A DNA stretch of 44,497 bases from Planctomycetota bacterium (lineage in GTDB: Bacteria > Planctomycetota > B15-G4 > JADJEK01). The DNA lies in NCBI GenBank assembly GCA_016213895.1, contig JACQZJ010000075.1:1-44497 (forward strand), in the 5' to 3' direction. Positions 14,750 through 16,254 of the stretch are shown here, piece after piece (within the stretch, counting starts at the first letter, position 1; each line of letters begins with the position of its first letter). Both the position numbers and the translations under genes were made by a program. The notes under the pieces are model-generated. The model did not search any database. It saw nothing but the letters and a program-made list of their open reading frames with translations, and had not been told where the DNA came from.

Positions 14750-15234
14750 ATGGAAGCGATGCGGGCGGTTCGGTGGCGTGAGGTACGCGAGGCGAGACCG
14801 GTACGGGCGCCGCGACCCCTGATCCAGCGCTCGCCGGTCCCCCGGCTCGAGCCTGGCCGGTGGACCAGAGATCGTAGGAGGCGCGCCCACCACCTTGAGG
14901 ACAGCCGCTGCCCGAGCGGAGCCCGCGGGCGCAGGCCAGCACGTCCGTGACGAGCCGCAGCCGAGCCCCAACCCTGCGAACGACCCGCGTCGCGGCTCTG
15001 CGCGGCCGTGCCGCCGAAGCCGCGGGCGAAGTGCGATCTGCTCTCGGGCCCGTCGCCGACCGCCGCCCGGTGTGCAGGAGCCCGTCCCTTCGTCCACGTC
15101 TGCTGCCACGTTCCGCTTCCGGAGCTGCGGCTCGTCATTGGAGCGCCTGGCTTTTGCCGGCGGGTCTTGCGATGCGGCGGCGCGGTCAAGTAGGCTGCGC
15201 GTGGTCAGAATCGAAGGGCCCTGGAGGAAGTGTC

Positions 15235-16254
15235 ATGCGCAGAAGCAGCGTTCTTGCCGTCCTCGCCCTCGCGGCGATGACTTCCGATGCGGCGGGAGAC
15301 CTCGGCGTTGGCGACAGCGCGCCGGCGGTCAGCGCCGAGAAGCTCCTGAACACGAAGCTGAAGAGCCTGGACGACCTGAAGGGCAAGCTGGTTCTCTTCG
15401 AGTACTTCGCCTGGTGGTGAGGACCCTGCAAGGGCGCCGTTCCCCACGTCAACCAGTTGGTTGACCAGTTCGAGAAAAAAGGCTTCGTCGTAGTCGGCGT
15501 GACGAACGTCGGTGACAAGGAACCGGAAGACAAGACCAAGGAGTTCATCGAGTCGAATGGGATGCGCGCCGTCGTGGCCCTCGAGCCGGGACTGGCCAGC
15601 ATGGACGCCTACGGCTTCAAGGGCTTCCCTTCGGCGGCGCTGGTCAGTCCCAAGGGGAAGATCGTCTGGACCGGCCATCCCGCCGGCCTGGAAGCGGGCG
15701 TCATCGAGGAGAACCTGAAGGACGTCCAGCCGGGCCGGCCGAGCGGCGACCTGGTCGTGGAGCTGGCTCTGCCCGAGAAGTACTCGGCCACTGCCAAGAA
15801 GCTGAAGAGCGGCAGCCTCGGCTATGCCTTGAATGAGCTGGTGAAGGCCGGGAGCGACAAGAAGCTGTCGCCAAAGGACGCTGCGCGCATCGACGAGGCG
15901 CGCCGCGAGATCGAGGCCATCATCGAGCGCGAGACCAGGAGGGCCGAGGAGGCGCTCGCGGAGAAGCGCTACTTCGACGCCCAGTTCGCCTGGTCGCGTC
16001 TGCTGAAGGCGTTTCGCGGTCACGACGCCAGTAAGAGCGCCGCCGAGCAGCTCGCCAAGCTGAAGGCGGACCCGGCGATCACGAGGGAGATCTCGGCCGG
16101 CGAGCGGATCAACACCGCGCTCGATCAGATTGATGAGGGCAAGACCGACGCGGCCTTGAAGACGCTGCGCTCCGTGACCACGGGTCCGCTGGGCGACACC
16201 GAGGAGGCGCGCCGCGCCGAGGCGCTCGCCGCGAAGCTGGAGTCGGGCGGCTGA
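15235..16254 (+). CDS. Exported thioredoxin/TlpA-like selenoprotein (UGPC active site, in-frame TGA)
   Basis: The ATG at 15235 has a strong ribosome site (GGAGG, 7-base spacing) and a signal peptide (MRRSSVLAVLALAAMTSDAAG). The thioredoxin fold runs over residues ~25-170. At the active site the frame reads FAWW, then TGA (15418-15420, codon 62), then GPCK, so Sec62 and Cys65 would form a UxxC redox pair in place of CxxC. The frame continues without shift through KKGFVVVGVTNV and the cis-Pro region GFKGFPSAALV to a TGA stop at 16252-16254, 339 residues in all. The C-terminal ~160 residues are helical and charged. A hairpin 28 bases after the TGA fits a bacterial SECIS. Likely role: periplasmic thiol-disulfide or peroxide reduction. 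Alternatives are a nonsense mutation or a read error. Conventional gene calling would split it at 15420 and restart near 15457. Confidence 0.82.
15418..15465 (+). promoter_or_regulatory. Sec-coding TGA with candidate bacterial SECIS hairpin
   Basis: Downstream of the TGA (15418-15420), GTCAACC (15448-15454) pairs perfectly with GGTTGAC (15459-15465) around the loop AGTT (15455-15458). The loop begins 34 bases after the TGA and has G as its second base. From memory, the published bacterial SECIS consensus asks for an apical loop about 16-37 nt from the UGA with a G among the first two loop bases; this hairpin meets both. A shorter stem, CCCT/AGGG around GCA, lies at 15424-15434. Confidence 0.7.

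Follow-up and report, generated by a model that had tools for sequence, protein, structure and literature searches.

A predicted exported UGPC thioredoxin-like selenoprotein with a helical C-terminal domain in a planctomycete genus carrying two Sec gene sets

The window, i.e., the whole stretch of 44,497 nt that was analyzed, contains an open reading frame at 15235-16254 (+) with an internal TGA at 15418-15420 (Table 1), and its translation reads MRRSSVLAVLALAAM...FAWW-U62-GPC65-K.... The frame is closed by its own TGA at 16252-16254, and 277 sense codons lie between the Sec TGA and this stop. GC by codon position is 0.64/0.44/0.87 on the 5' side of the internal TGA and 0.66/0.45/0.90 on the 3' side, and the third-position values thus indicate that the TGA is flanked by coding sequence on both sides. 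This bears out an earlier note on this DNA, which had described in-frame coding for 277 residues past the TGA, and the coordinates in that note were all correct when re-checked. The window protein is probably exported, judging by an N-terminus with a basic start and a hydrophobic stretch. The N-termini of relatives are hydrophobic too; as far as can be seen by eye, the N-terminus resembles the signal peptide proposed earlier. The upstream neighbor is a glycoside-hydrolase-38-like gene, and a CarboxypepD_reg-like protein and an asparaginase-like gene are encoded downstream. Across relatives, no functional neighbor was conserved past the near relatives, and the neighborhood therefore gives no clue to function.

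Table 1. Coordinates of the selenoprotein gene and its features in the window.
Feature	Position	Strand	Basis or remarks
Selenoprotein gene	15235..16254	+	339 residues plus TGA stop
Shine-Dalgarno-like GGAGG	15223..15227	+	sequence; 7 nt 5' of ATG
Probable signal peptide	15235..15300	+	~residues 1-22: RR, hydrophobic core VLAVLALAAM; by eye
Thioredoxin-fold domain (Redoxin/AhpC-TSA, ResA/DsbE-like), residues 25-148	15307..15678	+	Pfam, Foldseek
UGA read as Sec62, the first redox residue in the WUGPCK active site	15418..15420	+	TGA or Cys codon, 80/80 relatives
Resolving Cys65	15427..15429	+	invariant in sequence sets A1 and A3
bSECIS hairpin, 7 bp, loop AGTT	15448..15465	+	published rule, synonymous reshuffles, covariation
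cis-Pro132 (GFP loop)	15628..15630	+	invariant in sequence sets A1 and A3; cis geometry by analogy with thioredoxins
All-helical C-terminal domain, residues 172-339, 8 predicted helices	15748..16251	+	AF2

The homologue search covered 58 genomes (the window's and 57 relatives) and gave matches in 53. Among 80 fetched related loci, the U62 column held TGA in 31 and a cysteine codon (TGC/TGT) in 49, and TAA, TAG or another residue in none. This agrees with the earlier note, which had placed the TGA at the first Cys codon of an otherwise intact W-C-G-P-C-K motif (Sec62/Cys65) and had named Cys or TGA there in homologues as support for the call. All TGA forms with a placed organism belong to Planctomycetota, and the identical TGA is present in independently assembled genomes. 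Within the genus, the other genome encodes full-length TGA-bearing proteins 83% and 73% identical to the window protein, and TGA-bearing full-length copies elsewhere in the phylum share 45, 41, 34 and 33% identity, the first two being from other families. In a protein tree computed without the U62 column, the window protein falls in a clade of 23 sequences that all carry Sec (SH-aLRT 92), and the tree as a whole requires at least seven Sec/Cys switches, three of which are forced by well-supported branches. Compared with the relative L054, dN/dS is 0.21 and 0.51 on the two sides of the TGA, i.e., purifying selection acts on both.

Among the homologues, the redox motif is degenerate in L043 (WSERC) and L047 (HKQSC), which have kept the C-terminal region, and the sequences suggest that redox function has been lost or changed in these two. 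In one TGA-bearing relative (L122:6295-6585), the helical region is replaced by a hydrophobic segment and, C-terminal to it, a zinc-ribbon-like CxxC...CxxC terminus. The 73% homologue in the genus (genome G001) is a second full-length copy (L204, contig C35), and a separate fragment at ~10122-10313 of L203, near the collinear copy on contig C60, matches the C-terminal residues 284-339 only.

Downstream of the UGA lies a perfect hairpin, GTCAACC-AGTT-GGTTGAC, whose apical loop has G at position 2. The published rule for bacterial SECIS elements asks for 4-16 bp, a loop of 3-9 nt with G in the first two loop positions, a distance of 16-37 nt past the UGA and an MFE of -7.5 kcal/mol or lower (PMC13188914). 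The window hairpin satisfies this rule with 7 bp, the AGTT loop beginning 34 nt past the UGA and -9.0 kcal/mol when folded alone. Against 300 synonymous-codon reshuffles the hairpin has a p of 0.02, and the 61-nt region as a whole shows no unusual folding (z -1.07), which places the SECIS signal in the hairpin itself. Covariation was examined with 500 shuffles in nine sequences (eight distinct) that share the register of the window hairpin. Stem cells were paired in 94.6% of cases compared with 79.1% after shuffling, both sides had changed in 4/7 stem pairs, and the covariation score was 0.408 vs 0.112. None of the 500 shuffles matched the observed pairing percentages or covariation scores, and slid registers came nowhere close. 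The AGTT loop is invariant in this group, with stems gtcaacc, ctcaacc, ctcaatc and ctcgtgc. Since compensating stem changes coincide with amino-acid changes (GTC/GAC to CTC/GAG exchanges Val for Leu together with Asp for Glu, and AAC/GTT to AAT/ATT pairs a silent change with Val to Ile), the need to pair at the RNA level seems to limit the protein sequence. The earlier description of a 7-bp hairpin at bacterial SECIS spacing is thus in line with both the published rule and the covariation in relatives.

Family-wide, SECIS-like hairpins score higher in TGA genes than in Cys genes (p=2.4e-6), and 10/32 TGA genes vs 0/49 Cys genes have a hairpin with p <0.05; these rank controls, like the shuffles above, leave shared ancestry in. 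The hairpin of L058 reaches -6.9 kcal/mol alone, slightly short of the published -7.5, and in several more distant TGA relatives no rule-fitting hairpin was found. Within the family, the best SECIS-like hairpin lies either ~17 nt (L076, L077, L080, L083, L066) or ~34 nt (the window, L056-L058, L060) past the UGA. As several relatives have their hairpin at ~+17 rather than +34, the SECIS element has apparently changed position in the course of the family's evolution, the Sec column staying fixed.

The window's genome (G000; 95.5% complete, 0.74% contamination) holds two selA, two full-length selB, two selD and two tRNA-Sec genes, all above curated cut-offs. The selA, selB, selC and selD genes, the search for which was proposed in the earlier note, are thus all found. 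Both tRNA-Sec genes have a UCA anticodon and score as tRNA-Sec, and one selD (C64, L194:7145) itself carries a TGA in the motif YSSCAG-U-AAK, with a ggacctc-GTC-gaggtcc hairpin. The machinery is spread over contigs C64, C82, C214 and C88 (native set and selD) and C97:39338-42868 (second set), at loci L193-L197. The native set is dispersed and comprises selA, the Sec-containing selD, selB and selC; its selA on C64 (bootstrap/SH-aLRT 100/99) and selB on C82 (SH-aLRT 100) group in trees with the same planctomycete family, their own, and both are therefore taken as native. The second set consists of clustered selC-selA-selB genes on C97, and its SelA branches with that of G266, a genome of another planctomycete family (62% identity, 100/100). 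The nearest SelB to its SelB is also from G266 (54%), and SelB identity between the native and second sets is 37%.

That the second set stems from contamination of the draft assembly was considered and is disfavored, because both sets and their flanks are collinear with the other genome of the genus over 7.2 kb (second set), 5.0 kb (native selB) and 2.5 kb (native selA) at 88-90% identity, and GC is similar (0.69-0.73). These comparisons support the view that two phylogenetically distinct Sec gene sets co-reside in the genus. Among planctomycete genomes, selA was found in 241/392, with two selA matches in each of the two genomes of this genus and in five further genomes; the majority of these five have low best scores or partial hits, which suggests split genes. 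Five genomes (G024, G045, G047, G176 and G204) have at least two SelB-like proteins and one selA match each. According to Secmarker, two tRNA-Sec genes occur in eight bacterial genomes (PMC5330540), and in the open-licence literature we found no published report of two complete Sec sets in one genome.

The thioredoxin part of the window protein scores 56.4 against Pfam Redoxin (PF08534, gathering cut-off 26.6) and 54.1 against AhpC-TSA (PF00578, cut-off 26). AlphaFold2 with 32 homologues predicts a thioredoxin fold over ~residues 25-160 followed by the helical domain (pLDDT 89.6), and with a pTM of 0.60 the relative placement of the two domains is unsure. In Foldseek, the thioredoxin part matches DsbE/ResA structures at E ~1e-8, the nearest PDB entries being 3gl3, 1st9 and 4nmu. 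The protein resembles ResA, TlpA and DsbE (CcmG) in its fold, probable export, W-x-G-P-C-type motif and cis-Pro, but differs from them in having Sec for Cys and an extra 168-residue helical domain. It stays below the cut-offs of the ResA (NF002854, 67.8 vs 170 bits), TlpA (NF047696, 39.9 vs 230 bits) and DsbE (TIGR00385, 32.0 vs 123.15 bits) models, and since the ResA and TlpA cut-offs are not reached, the substrate of those proteins is not transferable to it. The ResA-like WAxxUGC motif-containing protein (NF041054) is likewise a ResA-like selenoprotein of similar length; however, it has a UGC motif in place of UGPC, and its thioredoxin part lies at model positions 76-206. The window protein scores 32.8 bits against this model (cut-off 300), and all 32 members of A3 match it weakly (best E 2.6e-16).

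The helical domain gives a pLDDT of 96.5 and a pTM of 0.86 when folded alone with AlphaFold2. Its classification by Pfam or fold gave no significant match: in Pfam no family exceeded its cut-off, with TPR_6 weak in 2/27 members, and Foldseek against the PDB returned nothing better than E 0.3. The best of these weak matches, the TPR domains of BamD and YbgF, are also all-helical, but with E 0.3 and a TM of ~0.3 no family relation to them is established. The extension is present in most full-length planctomycete relatives. The helical C-terminal extension that the earlier note did not recognize is thus real and conserved, but this protein is not alone in having it.

An error in sequencing, or a recent nonsense mutation that made a pseudogene of a Cys-type TlpA gene, could in principle account for a single TGA in a draft genome, the more so as over half of the fetched relatives have Cys at this column. 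We rejected this explanation and give it almost no probability, because the same TGA recurs in 31 fetched relatives where TAA and TAG never occur, dN/dS is below 1 on both sides and the SECIS element covaries. It is likewise very improbable that the UGA is read as another amino acid through general reassignment, a near-cognate tRNA or a SelB-star/tRNA-Cys system. SelB paralogues with a special tRNA-Cys have been described in some Desulfobacterales and Syntrophobacterales (PMC7609411). However, both special tRNAs of this genome score as tRNA-Sec with a UCA anticodon, each of the two Sec lineages has its own SelA, and UGA still terminates the window gene; this reading was rejected on these grounds. 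The sequence evidence strongly supports the call that TGA 15418-15420 encodes selenocysteine in a ResA/TlpA-like thioredoxin.

The selenoprotein might instead be a peroxidase of the peroxiredoxin type, as its best domain matches are Redoxin and AhpC-TSA. We consider this unlikely, since the UxxC motif with W before it and PCK after it, together with the cis-Pro, fits a TlpA-like oxidoreductase, the nearest structures and profiles are ResA/DsbE, and the Sec peroxiredoxin in a review table has TxxU (PMC13188914). Very probably, the product is an exported thiol-disulfide oxidoreductase of the ResA/TlpA-like type, with Sec, decoded from UGA 62 through SelB and the AGTT hairpin, in place of the nucleophilic Cys of W-C-G-P-C.

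Decoding would proceed by SelB binding the AGTT-loop hairpin and bringing tRNA-Sec(UCA) to UGA codon 62. For the function past that of an exported selenol-thiol oxidoreductase, we infer that the Sec62 selenol could attack disulfides or oxidized substrates outside the cytoplasm, probably envelope disulfides, and that Cys65 might resolve the mixed intermediate. A DsbD/CcdA-type donor in the membrane may supply the electrons for re-reduction, and the helical domain could serve in protein-protein contact or in attachment to the envelope, and so place the redox domain on a partner.

UxxC selenoproteins described as "Redoxin family protein" (PF08534) and "Prx-like thiol:disulfide oxidoreductase" (PF00578) share domain families, first-position Sec and UxxC with the window protein, and are a class already catalogued (PMC13188914). 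Selenoproteins and Sec genes were also known earlier in Planctomycetes (PMC4807772), and the class of the window protein is therefore expected. Judged by the table description, the protein is set apart in that no UxxC form there is named with a C-terminal helical domain. Our results add a planctomycete-wide selenoprotein family that combines a thioredoxin and a helical domain, is probably exported and shows Sec/Cys exchange at a single catalytic column. TGA-blind annotation would probably truncate its members, and the loss or splitting of the gene in ordinary annotation that the earlier note foresaw is plausible. Besides the Sec-containing SelD, three further likely selenoproteins were seen in the same genome: a protein sister to that of the window, with T-UPPC and a tgtggc-AGTT-gccaca hairpin (C211:41227, L242), a protein with a UPAC TlpA-like domain (C97:18676, L235) and one with a UPSC Prx-like domain (C59:63314, L237).

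The surprising part is the dual Sec machinery in the genus. It is conceivable, but rather doubtful, that two complete Sec systems operate in one cell, with putative SelB/tRNA-Sec/SelA sets splitting the UGA codons between them, e.g., by SECIS type, and the window gene belonging to one. If the two machineries were orthogonal, they would offer a natural test case for the choice of SECIS by SelB and for the tolerance of a cell for two UGA-recoding systems. Loop type did not serve to assign the window gene to either SelB, because AGTT is likewise present in G002 (L050), a genome in which a single SelB over the cut-off was found, of the native type, and because both SelBs of the window's genome retain TRKY and TVRR in their final winged-helix portion. 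In G266, the genes at L256:4074-9272 form a selA-selD-selB cluster whose selD is fused to a carboxymuconolactone-decarboxylase (AhpD-like) domain. A Fer4_5 ferredoxin-type gene follows this cluster, and in the window's genome a Fer4_5 gene (L193:12894-13781) also lies 3' of the second selB.
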